A DNA stretch of 64,000 nt from Rhizobium sp. NXC14 (GTDB lineage Bacteria > Pseudomonadota > Alphaproteobacteria > Rhizobiales > Rhizobiaceae): contig NZ_CP021033.1 of the NCBI RefSeq assembly GCF_002117485.1, positions 310,001 to 374,000 of the forward strand. The letters run 5' to 3'. Shown here one piece after another: positions 35,416 through 44,958 of the stretch. The notes below the pieces were generated by a model that was given only the letters and a program-made list of their open reading frames with translations, was not told the origin of the DNA and did no database searches. Within the stretch, counting starts at the first letter, position 1; the number at the start of each line of letters is the position of its first letter. The translations under genes were made by a program, and so were the position numbers.

Positions 35416-35868
35416 ATGAATGTCAAGACACCGAATGCCATAGACAGTTACGTCGGCGCGCGCATCAGAGCACGCCGGCAGCTGCTTGGAATGAGCCAGG
35501 AGCGGCTCGCCGACCAGATCGGCGTGACTTTTCAGCAGGTTCAGAAATACGAGAAGGGCATCAACCGCATTGGTGCGAGCCGTTTGCAGCGAATCGCCGA
35601 AGTGCTTCACACCTCTCCGAGCTTCTTCTTCGAGCAGAACGAGTCGCAGCCATTGAGCCTTCAGGGGTTGACGCTGCCGGACAATGCCGACCCCGTCGCA
35701 GAATTCCTGCGAACGAAAGAGGGGTTGGTGCTTAACCGCGCCTTTCTGAAGATTGCCGACCCCAATATTCGTGAAACGATCATCGCATTGGTGAAAGCGA
35801 TGGCTCAGGCGGAAAGCGGTCCGGCTTTGCCTTCGATAGCGGATATCACCCGTCCGCCTCTGGAGTAG
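35416..35868 (+). CDS. XRE-family (Cro/CI-type HTH) regulator, PraR-like
   Basis: 150 aa. HTH at about 18-72: IRARRQLLGMSQERLADQIG, then TFQQVQKYEKGINRIGASRL with recognition helix, and a C-terminal helical tail ending ITRPPLE. This size and composition are those of the rhizobial PraR-type regulators, which act in quorum sensing, attachment and biofilm control; other paralogues exist, so the name is not certain. Stands alone. Confidence 0.85.
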   Translation: MNVKTPNAIDSYVGARIRARRQLLGMSQERLADQIGVTFQQVQKYEKGINRIGASRLQRIAEVLHTSPSFFFEQNESQPLSLQGLTLPDNADPVAEFLRTKEGLVLNRAFLKIADPNIRETIIALVKAMAQAESGPALPSIADITRPPLE

Positions 35869-36004: not shown

Positions 36005-36244
36005 ATGAGCACTATGAATATCTCGCTGCCGGACAATTTGAAGCACTTCGTCGACCAGCAGGTCGCCGGTCGAGGATATGGCACGAGCAGCGAGTATGTG
36101 CGCGAACTCATCCGTCGCGACAGGGATCGGCAGCAGTTGCGCAATCTTCTGCTAGAGGGTGCGTCGTCCGAGACCACCGAGCCCATCGATGCCAGCTATT
36201 TCGATAGCCTGCGCGAGCGCGCAACGAAACAAAGCTCCAAGTGA
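36005..36244 (+). CDS. parD: ParD-like antitoxin (RHH)
   Basis: 79 aa. MSTMNISLPDNLKHFVDQQV is the ribbon-helix-helix strand and helix of ParD/CopG antitoxins, followed by GYGTSSEYVRELIRRDRDRQ. The acidic C-terminal tail would wrap the toxin. Its stop overlaps the toxin's GTG start, the usual coupled TA layout; the pair should repress its own promoter. Confidence 0.92.
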   Translation: MSTMNISLPDNLKHFVDQQVAGRGYGTSSEYVRELIRRDRDRQQLRNLLLEGASSETTEPIDASYFDSLRERATKQSSK

Positions 36245-36573
36245 CCGCGAAACCTGTCGTCCCCCGCCAGTCGGCTCGCGGGGATGTCGAGAATGCCGTG
36301 GACTATTACGCTCACATGGCGGGATCGCAGATAGCGGTAGGCTTCATCGATGCACTGCAATCGACCTATACTTTGATCGCAGAGCATCCTGCATCGGGTT
36401 CACTGCGCTACTCATATGAACTCGGTCTGCCCAATCTGCGCTGTACGACGCTGAAGGGTTTTCCTTATGTGATCTTCTATCTTGAACGAGCCGACCACGT
36501 CGACGTGTGGCGGGTTCTGCACGTCAAGCAGGATATTCCAGCGTGGCTGCAGGATTTAGGAGCATCGGATTAG
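36241..36573 (+). CDS. parE: ParE-like toxin (RelE/ParE superfamily)
   Basis: 110 aa, starting at GTG inside the antitoxin stop (GTGA). ENAVDYYAHMAGSQIAVGFI and the C-terminal YVIFYLERADHVDVWRVLH are the ParE/RelE fold markers, including the conserved arginine (WRVLH). ParE toxins poison DNA gyrase. Complete and apparently functional. Confidence 0.92.
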   Translation: MTAKPVVPRQSARGDVENAVDYYAHMAGSQIAVGFIDALQSTYTLIAEHPASGSLRYSYELGLPNLRCTTLKGFPYVIFYLERADHVDVWRVLHVKQDIPAWLQDLGASD

Positions 36574-36614: not shown

Positions 36615-37772
36615 TTATTCCATTATAACGTGCGGCACGAAACGGGATAGATTGGCCGTTATGCGCGAGCGGTCTTCGCGAACGGCAAGACCGCAGGCGC
36701 GATCACCGGCAACCCAGCTGCCGAGCACAGCAAAGCCGTTATCGCTTTCGAAAAGCGGGGCATAGGCCTGGATGACAAAACCTTCGTCGCCGTAATCGCC
36801 CGGTGCGGAAAACGCTTCCCGCCCATCTCGAAAAATCGTGACGTTTTCGCCCTCGCGCGACAACAATGGTTTGCGCACGTAGTCGGTCAAGGCCGAAGCC
36901 GCCGGGTCGTCGGTGAAATAACTCGGCAACAGGTTGGGGTGATGGGGGTGGCGCTGCCACAGCAGCGGCAGAAGCCCCTTGTTGGAGAGCACAGCCTTCC
37001 AGGCCGGCTCGACGAAAACATCGCCCGAGCGGGCAAGTTCGCGAGCGAAAGGCTCGCGCAGCATGAATTCCCATGGGTATAGCTTGAAGCAGCGGTCGAT
37101 CACCCGATCCTTGAGGTCGGTGTAGCGGCCCTGCGCATCGATGCCGATCTCCCGAATGTCCAGCAGTTCGACGCGATGGCCGGCCTGCACCGCACAGTCC
37201 ATGAGGTAGACCGTCGTGCCGCGATCCTCCTCATTGTCGGTTATCGCGGCGAAATGGAAGATCGGCTCCTTGGGAAATTGATCGAACGCCTCGACAAGAC
37301 TTTCCTGCAGGAAATTATACTGGTCCGCATCTTTGGGCAGAACACCCAAAGCGATCTGATCGGTCAGCCAGTTGAACTGGAAATAGGCCGTCTCGAACAC
37401 TGAAGTCGGGGTGTCGGCATTGTATTCGAGCAACTTGGCCGGGCCATTGCCATCATAAGCAAGATCGAAACGGCCATAAAGGTGCCGGTCGCGGCGCTGC
37501 CAGGACCGCTGCACCACATCGCGCAGGTCTTCCGGAATGGCCAACCTGTCGAGCGCCTCTTCACTGCCGACGATCTCGCCGACCAGATCCATGCACATAT
37601 CATGCAGTTCCTGGCTCGGCTCCTCGATCTGCTTCTCGATCTCCTCGAGCGTGAACGTATAGGCAGCATCGTCGAGCCAGTAAGGCTCGCCATACATGAC
37701 GTGAAACCCGAAACCCACGGCCTGCGCCTTGTCACGCCAGTCAGGACGCGCCGGAAGGGTGATGCGCTTCAT
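36615..37772 (-). CDS. Glutathionylspermidine-synthase-like ATP-grasp ligase (YjfC/YgiC homologue)
   Basis: 385 aa. The whole protein is the synthetase (ATP-grasp) part without the amidase domain of E. coli Gss. DLAYDGNGPAKLLEYNADTPTSVFE is the conserved Mg/ATP block with LEYNADTPT; LLSNKGLLPLLWQRHP-type VLSNKGLLPLLWQRHPHHPNL and PLLSREGENVTIF complete the family set. It joins an amine or amino group to a carboxylate using ATP; the real substrates of YjfC/YgiC are not known. The start follows the DUF1190 stop by one base, and the DUF1190-ATP-grasp pair is the same as ygiB-ygiC and yjfM-yjfC in E. coli. Confidence 0.92.
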   Translation of the reverse strand: MKRITLPARPDWRDKAQAVGFGFHVMYGEPYWLDDAAYTFTLEEIEKQIEEPSQELHDMCMDLVGEIVGSEEALDRLAIPEDLRDVVQRSWQRRDRHLYGRFDLAYDGNGPAKLLEYNADTPTSVFETAYFQFNWLTDQIALGVLPKDADQYNFLQESLVEAFDQFPKEPIFHFAAITDNEEDRGTTVYLMDCAVQAGHRVELLDIREIGIDAQGRYTDLKDRVIDRCFKLYPWEFMLREPFARELARSGDVFVEPAWKAVLSNKGLLPLLWQRHPHHPNLLPSYFTDDPAASALTDYVRKPLLSREGENVTIFRDGREAFSAPGDYGDEGFVIQAYAPLFESDNGFAVLGSWVAGDRACGLAVREDRSRITANLSRFVPHVIME

Positions 37773-37773
37773 G

Positions 37774-38379
37774 TCAGCCGCCGAAACTGAAGGACGAACG
37801 GCCGCCGAAGCCTTGCCGGGCAACGGTGCGGGTATTGACGTTGACAGGCTTGACAGTCTGGCGCGAGGGCGCCGTCACGCTGTCGATGCGCGTGCCGCCC
37901 GAGCGAACGGTGGTTGTGACCGTCTGCCCCGAGCGGTTGCGATAGATCGGCGTCGAGCCGTAATAGTAGCCGATCTCTTCTTGGCGCCGGCGATAATCGT
38001 AATAGTCGCCAATGTTGTTGAGTGCCGAAGACAGCACGTAGCCGGCCATGAACGGCACGAAGAAGTTTCCGCCTCCACCGGTATTGTTGTTAGGGACAGC
38101 GTTCGACGGCTGTTCCGTGCATTGGCCGGTCCCGTATTCTGCCTCGCAGGCGGCCATGCCGTTGAAACGCGGCGCGGTGGCGAGATGGGCACGCATCGCA
38201 TCCTGATAGCTGGCCTGGCAGACCTGCCGATCCATGCCCGCCGCCACGCATTGGTCGACGGAGGTGAACATTATATCCGAAGGAGCCTCCTCGCCGCAGC
38301 CGGACAGCGCCAGGGTCGAGGCAGCGATGGTGCCAAGGGCCAGGAAAGGTCGCCTGTGCCCGCTCATGCGTCTGCGCAT
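37774..38379 (-). CDS. DUF1190 lipoprotein (YjfM/YgiB family)
   Basis: 201 aa. The signal peptide ends in a lipobox (TLALSGC), so the mature protein is lipidated at Cys and held in the inner or outer membrane facing the periplasm. Conserved DUF1190 features follow: VDQCVAAGMDRQVCQASYQDA with paired cysteines, ACEAEYGTGQCTE, then FVPFMAGYVLSSALNN, and a low-complexity tail ending RSSFSFGG. The ATG at 38379 has GGAGGGAAAG immediately upstream. Cys spacing suggests two disulfides. Role unknown, but always next to a YjfC/YgiC-type ligase. Confidence 0.88.
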   Translation of the reverse strand: MRRRMSGHRRPFLALGTIAASTLALSGCGEEAPSDIMFTSVDQCVAAGMDRQVCQASYQDAMRAHLATAPRFNGMAACEAEYGTGQCTEQPSNAVPNNNTGGGGNFFVPFMAGYVLSSALNNIGDYYDYRRRQEEIGYYYGSTPIYRNRSGQTVTTTVRSGGTRIDSVTAPSRQTVKPVNVNTRTVARQGFGGRSSFSFGG

Positions 38380-38390
38380 CTTTCCCTCCC

Positions 38391-38792
38391 TCAATAGGTC
38401 ATGCAGGCAGCGTTGAGAATACCGACGACGAGCGCAATTCCGCCCCCCCATATTCCCGCAGCGATTTCACCGGCAGTGATCTTTTCATGCAGGTCTTTCA
38501 TGGTGAAGTTCGCGATGTAGAAAGCGAGGATCTGCGCCAGAGTGCCTATGACAGCCCATATGACGTAATCGACGACGCTGACGGAGTTGGCTGCGGCCGA
38601 AGCCAGAGGCAGGCTGAAGCCGACAAGCGCGCCCAGGAACGCAGTCACGGCGGCAAGATTGCCCGCCCGGATCAATTGGACCTCCTGTTGCGGCGTCAAC
38701 CAGGTGTAGATCACCGCGAAAACGCCGTAGGCGGCGAGCCCGATGGCGAAATAACCAAGGAAAGCAGGCAGGCCCGCCACGTAGTCGAGCAT
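38391..38792 (-). CDS. DUF350 membrane protein (YjfL family)
   Basis: 133 aa with four predicted membrane helices (about 10-30, 45-65, 75-95, 110-130). LGYFAIGLAAYGVFAVIYTW and GFSLPLASAAANSVSVVDYV are DUF350 signatures, as is the glycine-rich last helix (GIWGGGIALVVGI). Function unknown. It lies between the DUF2491 and DUF1190 genes, matching the E. coli order yjfK-yjfL-yjfM. Confidence 0.9.
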   Translation of the reverse strand: MLDYVAGLPAFLGYFAIGLAAYGVFAVIYTWLTPQQEVQLIRAGNLAAVTAFLGALVGFSLPLASAAANSVSVVDYVIWAVIGTLAQILAFYIANFTMKDLHEKITAGEIAAGIWGGGIALVVGILNAACMTY

Positions 38793-38825
38793 CGAAAATG
38801 TCCTCCGTTGAAATTGATAGGTCTC

Positions 38826-39485
38826 TCAGACGCGACGAACGTCGGCCGGAGCCAATCCATAACCGATCAGAAATTCTACCGAGCTGCCCGCCTGGGCCTG
38901 TCCGAAATCGAGGTCGCGCTCGACATTGATCAGAAGCATTTCGCGCGTCGAGCCAAGCGGGCGGTAGTACAGCATGCAGGTCTGATGGATGGAGTGCTGC
39001 GTTTCACCATCGCTGACCTTTTCGACAAATTCCACCAATTGCGCCCGCTCCGGGCCGTCGCCCCAGAACCGGTTATAGAGGATCCCGTCAGCATCATAGG
39101 ATGGCTGGCCGATCAGGCCGCCCGGCCCGGTCCAGCGGTTCCATTCGCTCTGGCCGGCGGGCACGACGCTGTCCCAAGGGTGATAAAAGCTGATGTCGTC
39201 GATCGCCTCACCCGGCTTACCCGACGCGGACATCACCTGAATCATCCGGTTCTCTTCATCGTAGTAGCGCGACAGAACGGTCGAGGCGTCGAGCGAAACC
39301 TCACCGTAGCCGGCAATGATGAACGGCCCGCTTCGCGGCAGCGGCATGGCCGGCTCGCCGGCCAAAGCATCGGCTTCGAGCGAGAGGAAATCAATCTCGA
39401 GCGCCCCGCCGATGGCCGCGCTCAAGGGGCCGAGCTCTTCAGGCAAAGCCCCCTCGTTCTTGTTTCCGCCGAACCAGCCGATCAT
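38826..39485 (-). CDS. DUF2491 protein (YjfK family)
   Basis: 219 aa, no signal peptide or membrane helix. PLSAAIGGALEIDFLSLEAD, FIIAGYGEVSLDASTVLSRYYD and ILYNRFWGDGPERAQLVEF are typical of YjfK/DUF2491, a cytosolic protein of unknown function always linked to PspA-like genes. Its ATG overlaps the channel gene's stop by ATGA (39482-39485); the frame is open further upstream inside the channel gene but that part is out of family. Confidence 0.88.
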   Translation of the reverse strand: MIGWFGGNKNEGALPEELGPLSAAIGGALEIDFLSLEADALAGEPAMPLPRSGPFIIAGYGEVSLDASTVLSRYYDEENRMIQVMSASGKPGEAIDDISFYHPWDSVVPAGQSEWNRWTGPGGLIGQPSYDADGILYNRFWGDGPERAQLVEFVEKVSDGETQHSIHQTCMLYYRPLGSTREMLLINVERDLDFGQAQAGSSVEFLIGYGLAPADVRRV

Positions 39486-40537
39486 GTCACGTCTCCCATT
39501 CGAGCCCAGGCGATGGCAGCGGGATCTAGCCGAATTTCGCTGATGTAGTAAAGCGTCTCGCCGCCCCGCATCAGCGTCTCGTCCCGGCAATTAAGGTCGG
39601 TTACGCCTTGGCTCAGCATGCCGACGAGCGTCACATGATGCCGACGCTTGAGGCCTAAAAACACGTCGCCATAGGAGAGCGGCGTCTGCAAGGCCGGCAC
39701 CGCCAGCGAAAAGGCCGTGTCGGTGGAGGCGGCGGACAACAGCCGCGCGGCGATTTCCGAAGAACCCGGATCACGTGCGGAACGCGACAGAAGCTCCTCG
39801 GCAAGCGAACCCACCGCCTCGACACGCGGCCGACGCTGCTTGACCATCTGTGCTGTGCGATCGTCGGCAAAATAGGCGACGATATGGGCATTGGGCGCAT
39901 GATCTTCGGCAATCAGCACCGCGGCCAGCGTTTCGTCGTCATTTGCGCCGCGGGCGATGACTGCCCGCGCCTGGGCCACTCCGGCCCGCAGCAAAGCGTC
40001 GGCATCGGCAAGCCGTTCCGTGCGGACGTAGTCGGCATAATTGCTGGCGGGATTTTCCGGCAGGTCCTTGGCGACCAGAACCGTCATCGGCTCGTTGGCA
40101 TGCCGTTCGGAGTGCAGCAGCCGCAACGTCTGGTATGTCTGGCCGTCTTGCCAACCCAAAACGATAATATGACCGGTGCGTTCGCTGTAGTCACCCAATC
40201 CGCGCATGCGATTTCTCCAGATCCTACCGATCGCTGTCAACAACTTGCCAAGAACAGCGGTAAAGATGGCAATGCCGCCAGGAAGAACCACCAGGACGGT
40301 AACGACCCGGCCGAGGCCCGATTTTGGGGAAAGATCGCCATAACCGACAGTCGTTGCCGTAACCATGTAATAGTAAAGAAAGTCGACCGGATTGCCGACG
40401 AGATCCCCTTCGCCGGCCAGTCTAAAGAGCAGATAAGAAATAATCAGATGCACAACGAGGATAACAAGAAGGGCTGACCACGCCAATTCGCCAAGCGACA
40501 GATATACACGCCGCAGTAATGAAGCGATAAATGGCAA
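39482..40537 (-). CDS. Two-TM potassium channel with cytoplasmic RCK/TrkA-N domain
   Basis: 351 aa. TM1 at about 19-40, pore helix 52-62, selectivity filter TVGYGD (63-68), TM2 at about 78-102, then an RCK/TrkA-N domain from about 120 (GHIIVLGWQDGQTYQTLRLL, a Rossmann-like start) and a C-terminal extension (about 255-351) ending at RLDPAAIAWARMG. It is a complete MthK/Kch-type K+ channel gated by a cytosolic ligand. It is first gene of the minus-strand arm of the PspA cluster, divergent from DUF2170, and coupled to DUF2491 by a 4-base overlap. E. coli yjf does not include a channel. Confidence 0.93.
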   Translation of the reverse strand: MPFIASLLRRVYLSLGELAWSALLVILVVHLIISYLLFRLAGEGDLVGNPVDFLYYYMVTATTVGYGDLSPKSGLGRVVTVLVVLPGGIAIFTAVLGKLLTAIGRIWRNRMRGLGDYSERTGHIIVLGWQDGQTYQTLRLLHSERHANEPMTVLVAKDLPENPASNYADYVRTERLADADALLRAGVAQARAVIARGANDDETLAAVLIAEDHAPNAHIVAYFADDRTAQMVKQRRPRVEAVGSLAEELLSRSARDPGSSEIAARLLSAASTDTAFSLAVPALQTPLSYGDVFLGLKRRHHVTLVGMLSQGVTDLNCRDETLMRGGETLYYISEIRLDPAAIAWARMGDVT

Positions 40538-40570
40538 GCGATTCGCCCCCTTTGCTGACCCCTACCCTAC

Positions 40571-40584
40571 CGAAATTAATTTCG
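40571..40584. promoter_or_regulatory. Perfect palindrome in the divergent channel/DUF2170 promoter gap
   Basis: CGAAATTAATTTCG is a perfect 14-bp palindrome in the 104-base gap between the two divergent operons, about 34 bases from the channel start and 58 from the DUF2170 start. A natural place for one regulator to control both arms. No regulator gene is in the cluster. Confidence 0.5.
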
Positions 40585-40641
40585 CGCGCCAGACCTTTAA
40601 GTTGTAAACTGATTACCCAGATATTTGCGACGCTCTAACCG

Positions 40642-41088
40642 ATGGAGGACTTTTTGGAGACCTGGAGCCTTACCACTTTAACGCGCCTGTTTGCGGCCGA
40701 CCCGGAAGCGCTCGGCGATGTGGATGTGGCCGTGCCCGAACATGGGGACGTCATCTGCGTAACTCTCAAGGAGAGAGGCGATCTCGACGTCTTCGTCGCG
40801 GTGAGCGGCGAGCGCGATATTCTTGTCAGCGTTGTCCTGGTGCCATGCAAGGAGGTGCCGAAGCGGGAGGCCTTCGAGCGGATGGTTCTCAAGACCCACA
40901 AGTTCGTGCCGCTGTCGAGCTTCGGCATCACCACGATTGACGGTGAGGAATGGTATGAATTGTTCGGCTCGCTGTCGGCACGCTCGTCGGCCGAGACCGT
41001 GGTCGAGGAAGTCGCCATTCTGGCTGCCAATGCGGTCGACGCGGCACACATGATTGAAGAATGGAAAAGCGGGGAGATCGCAGCGTGA
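40642..41088 (+). CDS. DUF2170 protein (YjfI family)
   Basis: 148 aa, soluble, no signal. EDFLETWSLTTLTRLFAADP, VAVPEHGDVICVTLKERGDL and VLVPCKEVPKREAFERMVLKTHKF are the YjfI/DUF2170 signatures. Function unknown; it is the constant upstream partner of PspA-like yjfJ. The stop overlaps the GTG start of the PspA gene. Confidence 0.9.
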   Translation: MEDFLETWSLTTLTRLFAADPEALGDVDVAVPEHGDVICVTLKERGDLDVFVAVSGERDILVSVVLVPCKEVPKREAFERMVLKTHKFVPLSSFGITTIDGEEWYELFGSLSARSSAETVVEEVAILAANAVDAAHMIEEWKSGEIAA

Positions 41089-41822
41089 GCACCTGGGGAA
41101 AGATTTTCACCGCCATTCGCGGCGGCATTAACGAGGCAGCGGAAGCGGCCGCCGATAGCCAGTCGATGCGCATTCTCGACCAGGAAATCCGCGATGCCGA
41201 ACAGTCGCTGCGGCGGGCGCGATCCGATTTGGCCGGCATCATGGCGTCGAACAAGAGCGTCATGCGCCGGCTTGAAGAAAACCGCGCGAAGGAAGCCAAG
41301 GACACCGACAGCGCCCGCGCGGCGATCTCTGCGGGCCGCGCGGATCTGGCGCAGGGTCTCGCTCAGCGCATTGCCAACATTCGCGCCGAAACGCAGCGAG
41401 ACCAGGAAGAGCTCGATCGGCTGCTGCCCCGCCAGCAGCAGATGCTGCGCACGATTCAGGAAACCGAATCGCGCATTGCCCAGATGAAACGCGAGGTGGA
41501 GAATGTCAAAGCCAACGAGTCGCTGCTGCGCGCTCAGTCGGCGATTGCCCATAACCAGTCGGGCATCAATACCCGTCTCGGCAGCGCCGTCCAAAGTCTC
41601 GAACGCATCAAAAAGCGCCAGGAAATGACGGCCGGGCGCATTGAGGCCGGCGCGGAACTGGCCGCGCTGGAAAACGGCAGCGATCTCGATCGTCAGCTGC
41701 GCGAGGCCGGCATTGGCGGTTCAAGTGAATCGGCCGACGACATTCTTGCACAGCTGATGGCACCAAAGCACTCGGCCGAGCCCGTCTTGCTCCCCCCGCC
41801 CCCCGGCGACAAGGACCGATAA
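41085..41822 (+). CDS. PspA/IM30-family membrane-remodelling protein (YjfJ-like)
   Basis: 245 aa, starting at GTG within GTGA of the DUF2170 stop. The N-terminus MSTWGKIFTAIRGGINEAAE is the amphipathic helix; most of the rest (about 25-190) is long coiled coil (SLRRARSDLAGIMASNKSVM and following), ending with the conserved LENGSDLDRQLREAGIGG. PspA/IM30 proteins coat and repair stressed inner membranes. The cluster of PspA plus channel, DUF350 and ATP-grasp ligase suggests a dedicated envelope-stress response. Confidence 0.92.
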   Translation: MSTWGKIFTAIRGGINEAAEAAADSQSMRILDQEIRDAEQSLRRARSDLAGIMASNKSVMRRLEENRAKEAKDTDSARAAISAGRADLAQGLAQRIANIRAETQRDQEELDRLLPRQQQMLRTIQETESRIAQMKREVENVKANESLLRAQSAIAHNQSGINTRLGSAVQSLERIKKRQEMTAGRIEAGAELAALENGSDLDRQLREAGIGGSSESADDILAQLMAPKHSAEPVLLPPPPGDKDR

Positions 41823-42064: not shown

Positions 42065-42790
42065 TTAGCTGACTCCGAGGAACTGCTTTAACTCGGCAGT
42101 CTGCGGATTGGCGAAGACGTCCTCCGGCCGGCCTGCTTCATGGACTCGGCCCTGATGCATAAAGACGACGCGGCTGCAGACGTCGCGGGCGAACCGCATC
42201 TCGTGCGTGACCATCAGCAGCGTCATTCCCTCGGCGGCAAGTTCGCGCACGACGGCCAGAACTTCGGCGACCAGTTCCGGATCGAGCGCCGAGGTGATCT
42301 CATCGCAAAGAAGGGCGGTCGGCTGCATGGCGAGCGCGCGGGCGATGGCGACGCGCTGCTGTTGTCCGCCCGAGAGCTCGTCAGGATAGGCGTCGAACCT
42401 GTGACCCAGCCCCACACGCTCCAGCATCTTGCGGGCGTTGGCCTCGGCTTCGGCCTTGGGTGTCTTTTTGACCACCGCCTGCGACAGCACGACGTTGCCG
42501 CCGGCAGTCAGATGCGGGAAGAGATTGAATTGCTGAAAGATCATGCCGACCTTCAGGCGCAGCGCCTTTAAATGGACTTCGTCATCGATGAGCTGTGCGC
42601 CGGCCACTGAGATGGAACCGCTGGTAATGGTCTCAAGACCATTGATGCAGCGAAGCAGGGTCGATTTGCCGGAACCGCTCTTGCCGATAATGGCAATGAC
42701 CTCGCCAGGTTCGACATTCAGGTTAATGCCTTTCAGCACCTCGTTGGATCCGTAGCTCTTGCGGACGTCAGTGATTTCGATGAGCGACAT
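42065..42790 (-). CDS. Polar amino-acid ABC transporter ATPase (GlnQ/HisP family)
   Basis: 241 aa, normal GlnQ size. Walker [24 protein letters not shown], Walker [17 protein letters not shown] and H-loop [11 protein letters not shown] (the HEM variant is typical of amino-acid ATPases). The conserved N-terminus [14 protein letters not shown] sets the start at 42790; it overlaps the upstream permease by 23 bases. Last gene of the operon. Confidence 0.94.
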
Positions 42791-43427
42791 TGAGCTTCCT
42801 CTCCAGGATCTGGCTGCTTTTCGACAAGGGCCAGCAAAGGGCGAAATAGATGAGCGCGACGAGCCCATAGACGGTGAAGGGCTGGAAGGTGGCGTTGGTG
42901 ACCACGGTGCCGGCCTTCGACAATTCGACGAAACCGATGATCGAGGTCAGCGCCGTGCCCTTGATGATCTGAACGGAGAAACCGACGGTCGGCGGTATGG
43001 CGATCCTCAGCGCCTGCGGAAGGATGACGTAGCGCATCTGCTGCAGACGCCCCATGCCGAGGCTGGCGGAGGCTTCCCATTGCCCCTTCGCAACCGCTTC
43101 GACGCAGCCTCGCCAGATCTCGGTGAGAAAGGCGGCGCTCCATAGGATCAGCGCCAGTCCTGCCGCCAGCCAGGCCGGGACGTCTATTCCGAAGAGCCCG
43201 AGACCGAAAAAGGCGATGAAGAGTTGCATCAGCAGCGGCGTACCCTGGAAGAGCTCGATATAATATTTCGCAAATGCCCGACCGGCCTTGCGCCTGCTGA
43301 TGCGTAGGAATAGCAGGCCGAGGCCGACCACGCTGCCGCCGATGAACGAGACGAGCGATAGAAGAATGGTCCAGCGAGTGGCGAGCAGCAGGTTGCGCAG
43401 GATGTCCCAAAGCGTGAAGGTGATCAT
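42768..43427 (-). CDS. Amino-acid ABC transporter permease (HisM/GlnP family)
   Basis: 219 aa. RTVLLSLVSF-type start LATRWTILLSLVSFIGGSVV, FQGTPLLMQLFIAFFGL and the EAA loop CVEAVAKGQWEASASLGMGR followed by ILPQALRIAIPPT define the HisMQ family. It forms one half of the permease pair. Confidence 0.93.
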   Translation of the reverse strand: MITFTLWDILRNLLLATRWTILLSLVSFIGGSVVGLGLLFLRISRRKAGRAFAKYYIELFQGTPLLMQLFIAFFGLGLFGIDVPAWLAAGLALILWSAAFLTEIWRGCVEAVAKGQWEASASLGMGRLQQMRYVILPQALRIAIPPTVGFSVQIIKGTALTSIIGFVELSKAGTVVTNATFQPFTVYGLVALIYFALCWPLSKSSQILERKLNVAHRNH

Positions 43428-44095
43428 CGCACTGCTCTCCTCGGGAAGATGAACCAGCCAACCAGGCCCAGCACCTGCCGGAGCAGGATTGCCAGCGCGA
43501 GATAGATTGATGTCGAGACGATGTAAGCCTCGAAGGCTCGGAAGGTTCGCGATTGGATGAAATTCGCGGCGAAAGTCAGATCCTCGGCGGCGATCTGCGA
43601 TACGACCGCTGAGCCGAGCATTACGATGACCACTTGCGACGACAGTGCCGGCCAGATGCGCTGCAGCGACGGCACGAGCACGACATGGCGGAAGGTCTCG
43701 AAGCGCGTCATGGCGAGGCTCTCGCCCGCCTCGAACTGGCCTTTCGGCGTTGCTTGGATGCCCGCGCGAATGATCTCGCAGCTATAGGCGCCGAGGTTGA
43801 CGACCATTGCGAGATTAGCGGCCGTCAATTCGGAGAGCTGGAGGCCGAGCGATGGCAGACCGAAAAAGATGAAGAAAAGCTGGATCAGGAATGGAGTGTT
43901 GCGGATCAGTTCGACATAGGCCGCGACGACCGGCTTCAGCCAGACCGGGCCGAGCGCCCGCACCCAGGCGCAGACGATGCCGAGCGAAATGCCGAGCACA
44001 CCGCCAATCGCGATAAGCTCCAGGGTGATCAGTATGCCCTTAATGATCTGGGGGTAATATTCAAGCAGCCAGCCGAATTCGAAATGGTAACTCAA
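43424..44095 (-). CDS. Amino-acid ABC transporter permease (HisQ family)
   Basis: 223 aa. IKGILITLELIAIGGVLGIS, ELIRNTPFLIQLFFIFFGLP and EAA loop AGIQATPKGQFEAGESLAMT are family signatures. It overlaps the partner permease by 4 bases and follows the binding-protein gene across a 77-base gap dominated by a 16-bp hairpin. Confidence 0.93.
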   Translation of the reverse strand: MSYHFEFGWLLEYYPQIIKGILITLELIAIGGVLGISLGIVCAWVRALGPVWLKPVVAAYVELIRNTPFLIQLFFIFFGLPSLGLQLSELTAANLAMVVNLGAYSCEIIRAGIQATPKGQFEAGESLAMTRFETFRHVVLVPSLQRIWPALSSQVVIVMLGSAVVSQIAAEDLTFAANFIQSRTFRAFEAYIVSTSIYLALAILLRQVLGLVGWFIFPRRAVR

Positions 44096-44121
44096 GGAAT
44101 GTCCCCTCTTGCGGTGACGGA

Positions 44122-44157
44122 GCGCATGTCATCCCGCGGAGGCGGGATGACATGCGC
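44122..44157. terminator. Strong intercistronic stem-loop after the amino-acid binding-protein gene
   Basis: GCGCATGTCATCCCGC pairs perfectly over 16 bp with GCGGGATGACATGCGC, with a 4-base loop. It lies 15 bases after the binding-protein stop and 26 before the permease. The longest such stem in the window; no T-run. Confidence 0.8.
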
Positions 44158-44172
44158 GAGACCCGGATTTCC

Positions 44173-44958
44173 TTAAAGATCGGACGGCAGATCGGCGCCG
44201 AGCCACTTCTGCGAGATGGCATTCAAGCTGCCATCGGCTTTGGCGGCGGCGACGATGCCGTTCACCTTCTCCAGAAGCGCGGACTGTTCCTTGTTGAGAC
44301 CGATGTAGCAGGGCGAGTTCTTGATGAGGAACTTCAGCTCGGGGCGCTTGGGAGGATTTTTGGCGAGGATGGCAGCCGCCACGACATTGCCGGTGGCAAT
44401 GATGTCGACCTGGCCGGAGAGGAAGGCCGAGATGGTGCCGTTATTGTCCTCGTAACGCTTGATCGTTGCGTCGGCCGGCGCGATCTTCGTCAGCTCGAGA
44501 TCCTCCACGGCGCCGCGCGTGACGCCGATGCTCTTGCCCGCGAGATCCTCCGCCTTGGCGACCGAAAGATCGGCCGGCCCGAAGACGCCGTTGAAGAAGG
44601 GCGCGTAGGCGACCGAGAAATCGATCACCTTTTCGCGCTCCGGATTCTTGCCGAGGCTCGATATCACAAGATCGACCTTGTTCGTCTGTAGATAGGGGAC
44701 GCGGTTGGCGCTCGTAACCGGCACGAGCTCGGCTTTGACGCCCAGCTTTTCGGCAATGAGGTTGGCCATGTCGATATCGTAGCCCATCGGCGCCATATCG
44801 GTGCCGACGCTGCCGAAAGGTGGGAAATCCTGCGGGACTGCGACGCGCAGCGTACCGCGCGCCGTGATGTCGGCGAGAGCATCGGCGTGAGACGGCGAGG
44901 TGAAGCTGAAGGTCGCGGTCAGGGCTGCGATTGCGAAGAATATCCGTCTTGTCAGCAT
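44173..44958 (-). CDS. Amino-acid binding protein (SBP family 3)
   Basis: 261 aa. Signal peptide FFAIAALTATFSFTSPSHA before DALADITARGTLRVAVPQDF. GYDIDMANLIAEKLGV and VDLVISSLGKNPEREKVIDF are the family-3 fingerprints (MANxIAxxLG and the SMSxTxER-like TxER analogue NPEREK). Periplasmic; ligand a polar amino acid or opine-like compound, not determined. Four bases separate it from the regulator gene, so it is transcribed from the regulator promoter or a promoter inside that gene. Confidence 0.92.
   Translation of the reverse strand: MLTRRIFFAIAALTATFSFTSPSHADALADITARGTLRVAVPQDFPPFGSVGTDMAPMGYDIDMANLIAEKLGVKAELVPVTSANRVPYLQTNKVDLVISSLGKNPEREKVIDFSVAYAPFFNGVFGPADLSVAKAEDLAGKSIGVTRGAVEDLELTKIAPADATIKRYEDNNGTISAFLSGQVDIIATGNVVAAAILAKNPPKRPELKFLIKNSPCYIGLNKEQSALLEKVNGIVAAAKADGSLNAISQKWLGADLPSDL

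Follow-up and report, generated by a model that had tools for sequence, protein, structure and literature searches.

Little is known about why genes for PspA, a polyamine ligase and a potassium (K+) channel sit together, and the question is raised by seven genes at positions 36615–41822 of a 64,000-nucleotide stretch from the root-nodule bacterium Rhizobium sp. NXC14 (contig NZ_CP021033.1, positions 310,001 to 374,000; below, "the window" means this whole stretch). The window is carried on an 889,015-base plasmid contig of a 6.69-Mb genome in four contigs. Clusters of this type have been described before: the section of Ravi et al. (2024; PMC11237479) on CesT/Tir–PspA operons describes the same kind of operon, of which the Rhizobium locus is one member, and the novelty assumed in a first-pass annotation of this DNA does not survive. 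The explanation that we favor, with moderate confidence, is that the cluster belongs to a family of PspA–polyamine envelope-stress operons, here divergently arranged and with its K+ channel kept, in which the DUF2170–PspA dyad, the ligase and the channel work as proposed below.

Gene layout

The features of the cluster are as follows.

36615..37772, minus strand: ATP-grasp peptide–polyamine ligase (GSP_synth; YgiC/YjfC type, without an amidase domain); Pfam 484 bits across the whole profile
37774..38379, minus strand: DUF1190 lipoprotein (YjfM-like); Pfam 125 bits; start inferred from sequence
38391..38792, minus strand: DUF350 membrane protein (YjfL-like); Pfam 120 bits
38826..39485, minus strand: DUF2491 protein (YjfK-like), predicted to be beta-rich; Pfam 175 bits
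39482..40537, minus strand: MthK-like two-helix K+ channel with a TVGYGD filter and an RCK region; Pfam Ion_trans_2 54 bits and TrkA_N 30 bits
39482..39485, minus strand: 4-base overlap (ATGA) of the channel stop and the DUF2491 start, seen in the sequence
40538..40641, no strand: divergent intergenic region of 104 bases, with conserved blocks in 21 Rhizobium-group loci
40642..41088, plus strand: DUF2170 protein (YjfI/BacA-like, CesT/Tir-type); Pfam 145 bits
41085..41822, plus strand: PspA/IM30 protein (YjfJ-like); Pfam PspA_IM30 132 bits; start inferred from sequence
41085..41088, plus strand: 4-base overlap (GTGA) of the DUF2170 stop and the PspA start, seen in the sequence

Order, strands and families agree with the first-pass annotation, and all seven proteins scored above the curated Pfam cut-offs. 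The best-fitting starts are TTG for the channel (40537), ATG for DUF2491 (39485), DUF350 (38792), DUF1190 (38379) and the ligase (37772), and GTG for PspA (41085); for DUF2170, TTG at 40654 may be an alternative start. The 4-base overlaps that had been described at several junctions are present at channel/DUF2491 and DUF2170/PspA and at no others: the genes are separated by 33 bases at DUF2491/DUF350, 11 bases at DUF350/DUF1190 and 1 base at DUF1190/ligase.

Three layouts of the same genes

Searches for DUF2491 hit 36 of 148 genus genomes, 3 of 297 genomes sampled from the order and 29 of 398 sampled from the phylum. We examined the loci of all 29 phylum matches, 35 of the 36 genus matches (leaving out G687, on a 7.9-kb contig), 70 named loci and E. 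coli K-12; the first three of these sets share loci, and their counts are not additive. The named set, collected with an alphaproteobacterial-type DUF2491 alignment (A2), is an uneven sample consisting, by name, of alphaproteobacteria. Looser profiles were set aside, as shadow reading frames gave false copies of DUF2491 and DUF350.

The six core genes (all but the channel) are complete at 25 of the 29 phylum loci, 20 of which also have the channel, and at 68 of the 70 named loci, 46 with the channel (that of Aureimonas jatrophae, L189, being placed on the far side of PspA). All seven genes are present at 35 of 35 genus loci, an association that exceeds chance, and also at L140, a named locus whose contig has the same length as that of G687. 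Plasmid records matching the locus number 64; every one is from Rhizobium, as are the nearest named relatives of its DUF2491. The cluster occurs with all genes on one strand (13 loci with the channel, 3 without, E. coli among the latter), with the dyad transcribed divergently from the other genes, as in this Rhizobium, or with the ligase moved behind PspA (4 with, 3 without). A chance neighborhood of unrelated envelope genes, which the 889-kb contig and the family's patchiness within the order might suggest, is refuted by this conserved order: the seven genes are found together again and again across the phylum, in three arrangements, and we give the idea almost no credence.

In the phylum clusters that have it, the channel lies directly ahead of DUF2491. 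All 84 divergent loci for which this was measured (overlapping genus and named sets, L189 left out) have it beside DUF2491, with a median gap of −4. In the 13 collinear loci that have it, PspA, the channel and DUF2491 lie on the same strand, with fewer than 160 bases between PspA and the channel in 12 (the exception, L075, has 789) and fewer than 75 between the channel and DUF2491 in all 13, gene starts being approximated by domain starts. Such close packing favors joint expression.

The channel is a frequent part of the cluster and is repeatedly absent

The first-pass annotation had called the locus yjf-like with an added channel. The E. coli set indeed lacks one, since no channel is annotated between yjfJ and yjfK in K-12. 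As a late addition, however, the channel can be rejected: its frequency in the phylum and named clusters, its presence in the tree neighbors of E. coli, and the inclusion of a K+ channel with ligand sensing in the third CesT/Tir–PspA operon group, as that section of PMC11237479 describes it, all speak otherwise. The neighborhood check that had been suggested, run across the phylum, found it in most orthologous clusters (20 of 25) rather than missing from nearly all.

Protein distances among 39 loci correlate at 0.93–0.95 between the channel and the six core proteins, and at 0.89–0.98 among the core proteins themselves, which supports a single, co-inherited channel. Together, gene order and co-divergence bear out the earlier claim of one conserved unit comprising a PspA module, a peptide/polyamine ligase, DUF350, a lipoprotein and an RCK channel. 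A tree was computed from the concatenated core proteins; from 97 loci, L077–L080 and L187 were removed for an incomplete core, as were 20 near-identical loci of the remaining 92, and the resulting 72 rows were analyzed by a quick method without a mixture model, which gave long-branch warnings. Channel presence requires at least 11 changes on this tree, compared with a mean of 19.8 after shuffling (0 of 500 shuffles were as low). E. coli pairs with the channel-bearing L065 at full support in the Shimodaira–Hasegawa-like approximate likelihood ratio test, and loss in the E. coli line is therefore the simplest reading, although change counts alone cannot separate gain from loss.

Where the channel is missing, it is cleanly missing: 63–384 bases separate the neighboring domains (63 in E. 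coli), with no frame above 90 amino acids that carries a T-x-GYG filter, and E. coli, six Devosia loci and three Agrobacterium vitis loci retain the six other genes. These absences, with the repeated changes on the core tree, would fit a channel that is a loosely coupled accessory supplying K+ flux and freely lost, the working unit being DUF2170–PspA–DUF2491–DUF350–DUF1190–ligase. We regard this as possible, if doubtful: where a channel is present it is of one family, holds its place beside DUF2491 and co-diverges with the core proteins.

The Rhizobium channel has the features of the MthK type, namely a pore with the TVGYGD filter and an RCK region, as had been annotated. It matches MthK by phmmer (3.7e-15), and its predicted structure (predicted local distance difference test, pLDDT, 84; predicted template modeling score, pTM, 0.61) matches MthK by Foldseek with an E value of 1.5e-16 over 320 columns, although the template modeling scores are only 0.36/0.39. 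The Pfam scan gave no TrkA_C match. The Ca2+-site residues D184, E210 and E212 of MthK (D184 and E212 being named in PDB titles) align with R196, Y222 and A224. Gating by Ca2+ in the manner of MthK is therefore rejected for this channel, provisionally, as the alignment is a single pairwise one.

Two variants were seen among the cluster channels of other loci. Those of L065 and L066, near the branch of the channel-less E. coli, have GFGD in place of GYGD in the filter. In L187 (Neorhizobium vignae), the channel gene is in two fragments and the DUF2170–PspA dyad was not found nearby; this is perhaps a decaying cluster.

The ligase and its probable amine

The closest solved structures to the ligase are E. 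coli YgiC (PDB 7uk8, 423 bits) and YjfC (7uk6, 404 bits). Both matches are full-length, and the single GSP_synth domain without an amidase fits the YgiC/YjfC type. At each alignment column that 97% or more of 92 ligases conserve, the protein keeps the conserved residue, and it is the only copy that we found in its own genome. RefSeq names YjfC a peptide--spermidine ligase, and the earlier description of the E. coli homologs as all poorly characterized is outdated for this one. A 2023 title by Pederick et al. reportedly uses the term peptide-spermidine ligase for the YjfC-type enzyme as well.

The host encodes a homospermidine synthase (798 bits). Searches of its genome found no S-adenosylmethionine decarboxylase (AdoMet_dc) and no NspC (the partner of the latter, carboxyspermidine dehydrogenase, was not searched separately), and the only Spermine_synth match, at 26 bits, is far under four aminopropyltransferase (speE-type) cut-offs. 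Given a homospermidine synthase and no spermidine route found, the ligase probably conjugates homospermidine, which to judge from gene content is most likely the triamine used here. Spermidine is unlikely to be the home triamine, although uptake from outside might supply some. S. meliloti makes spermidine "unlike most rhizobia", in the wording of the abstract of PMC13293326. Our literature searches returned no paper on peptidyl-homospermidine or a peptidyl-homospermidine ligase, and a homospermidine-making host offers a clean prediction for the true amine of the enzyme.

Could the amine act on the channel directly? Free triamine might block or gate the K+ pore from inside, with conjugation by the ligase relieving it. 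Ligase and channel share a cluster, the missing MthK Ca2+-site residues leave room for another gating ligand, and cytosolic polyamines are described in the abstract of PMC4145359 as blocking inwardly rectifying K+ (Kir) channels. That block is reported there for Kir channels and not for the present family, and channel-less clusters keep the ligase; we consider such a link quite improbable. The specific form, in which the Rhizobium-group cluster would make peptidyl-homospermidine and free homospermidine would set channel conductance by pore block or RCK binding, is likewise improbable in our view. If true, the module would tie membrane potential directly to the conjugation of polyamines, with PspA mending the membrane at the same time.

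The dyad and the three DUF proteins

The DUF2170 protein matches a DUF2170 structure (PDB 8q8o) at 63 bits. PspA scores 31.6 bits against TIGR02977, the equivalog for canonical phage-shock PspA, below its cut-off of 242.95. A second PspA-family gene (90.6 bits) lies on the 4.49-Mb contig of the same genome (C1:1084230-1084898, L002). The conserved blocks of the divergent region come from an alignment that omits L127, where the stretch is longer.

DUF2491 is a confidently modeled protein (pLDDT 90.4, pTM 0.85) whose model has no significant structural match in the PDB. A triphosphate tunnel metalloenzyme fold is a lead only; the ExExK motif of those enzymes is, by eye, absent from the invariant and near-invariant columns of DUF2491 alignment A1. 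DUF2491 also occurs in another setting, as distant genes without the cluster in four genomes (L077–L080, of which L079 has DUF350), and a close-relative search found no viral contigs with it. DUF1190 carries, by eye, an LSGC lipobox plus four further conserved cysteines; C28, C44, C54, C78 and C87 each reach at least 97% conservation over 92 rows.

A working model

In the explanation that we favor, DUF2170 would be a CesT/Tir-type chaperone or regulator that partners PspA, and PspA, under its control, would answer membrane stress by coating or remodeling the stressed inner membrane. The ligase would join a peptide carboxylate to a triamine, most likely homospermidine, and so either lower the free polycation near the membrane or yield a conjugate for an envelope part in which DUF350 would be the membrane component and DUF1190 the outer one. 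The MthK-like channel, where kept, would open on a cytosolic ligand through its RCK ring and adjust K+ and membrane potential. We infer the stress function, substrates, gating ligand and order of steps; that the parts may work together had also been proposed in the first-pass annotation, and a PspA–polyamine membrane model has been published, as has the operon type itself.

An envelope-stress role is suggested, indirectly, by two reports: in P. aeruginosa, five proteins encoded downstream of bacA (DUF2170) rose 6.1- to 13.5-fold when that gene was deleted, and heat-evolved E. coli upregulated yjfIJKL, an effect that the authors of that report ascribe to a promoter deletion.

Several points weigh against this proposal. 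The channel is dispensable, being absent from 5 of the 25 phylum clusters with a complete core and from 22 of the 68 such named loci, and such repeated absence, together with its many changes on the tree, counts against tight coupling to it; co-divergence could also be explained by shared vertical descent. According to the authors of the bac study (PMC10948618), the P. aeruginosa DUF2170–PspA operon and its surroundings have no spermidine-synthase homolog, and the dyad may thus serve without polyamine genes. No known sigma-factor motif exceeded chance in the divergent region (40478–40700), scanned with classical consensus motifs: sigma-54 gave a single 3-mismatch site (0.76 expected), sigma-70 three 4-mismatch sites (2.6 expected), and EcfG and RpoH none. 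Finally, the papers searched held nothing on expression, ligands, flux or enzyme activity for these Rhizobium genes, and none of them joins Rhizobium, PspA and glutathionylspermidine. Natural clusters with and without the channel would allow a direct test of its contribution.

Neighboring genes

The window has no Rfam match at the gathering score and no tRNA. On the side of the ligase stop lie an XRE-type helix-turn-helix regulator (35416–35868, plus strand; Pfam HTH_3, 59 bits), too distant to claim as the cluster's regulator, and a ParD-like frame of 79 amino acids (36005–36244, plus strand, by eye) that overlaps by 4 bases a ParE toxin (36241–36573, plus strand; PF05016, 44 bits), which ends 41 bases from that stop. 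Beyond PspA, an amino-acid-type ABC transporter (42065–44958, minus strand) comprises an ATPase, two permeases and a binding protein, as read from translations without a family scan.

Comparison with known systems

E. coli yjfIJKLMC shares six of the seven genes in homologous order, all on one strand. P. aeruginosa bacABCDEF, as described in PMC10948618, shares DUF2170 in first and PspA in second position, the two genes compared. The YgiC and YjfC ligases share a single ATP-grasp unit and a full-length sequence match with ours; they are reported to be peptide-spermidine ligases, whereas the home triamine of Rhizobium is probably homospermidine. The Ca2+-gated MthK shares the two-helix pore, the GYGD filter and the RCK region, and differs at its Ca2+ site.

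The cluster is a member of the third group of Ravi et al. (PMC11237479), and the gene families given in that section are all found here: the DUF2170 (CesT/Tir)–PspA dyad, a GspS-like ATP-grasp ligase, a K+ channel with an intracellular ligand-sensing domain, and DUF350, DUF1190 and DUF2491 (the last named, in the portions of the literature searched, in that paper only). The section describes a single operon, an arrangement not shown there to be required, and does not mention a divergent layout, whereas in Rhizobium the dyad diverges from the other five genes; because collinear and divergent layouts share gene families, we read the difference as a variant of layout. Judged by the passages compared, the present analysis adds four things to that description: a survey of where the channel is present or absent, the divergent layout in alphaproteobacteria, the lack of the Ca2+ site, and the prediction that the amine is homospermidine.

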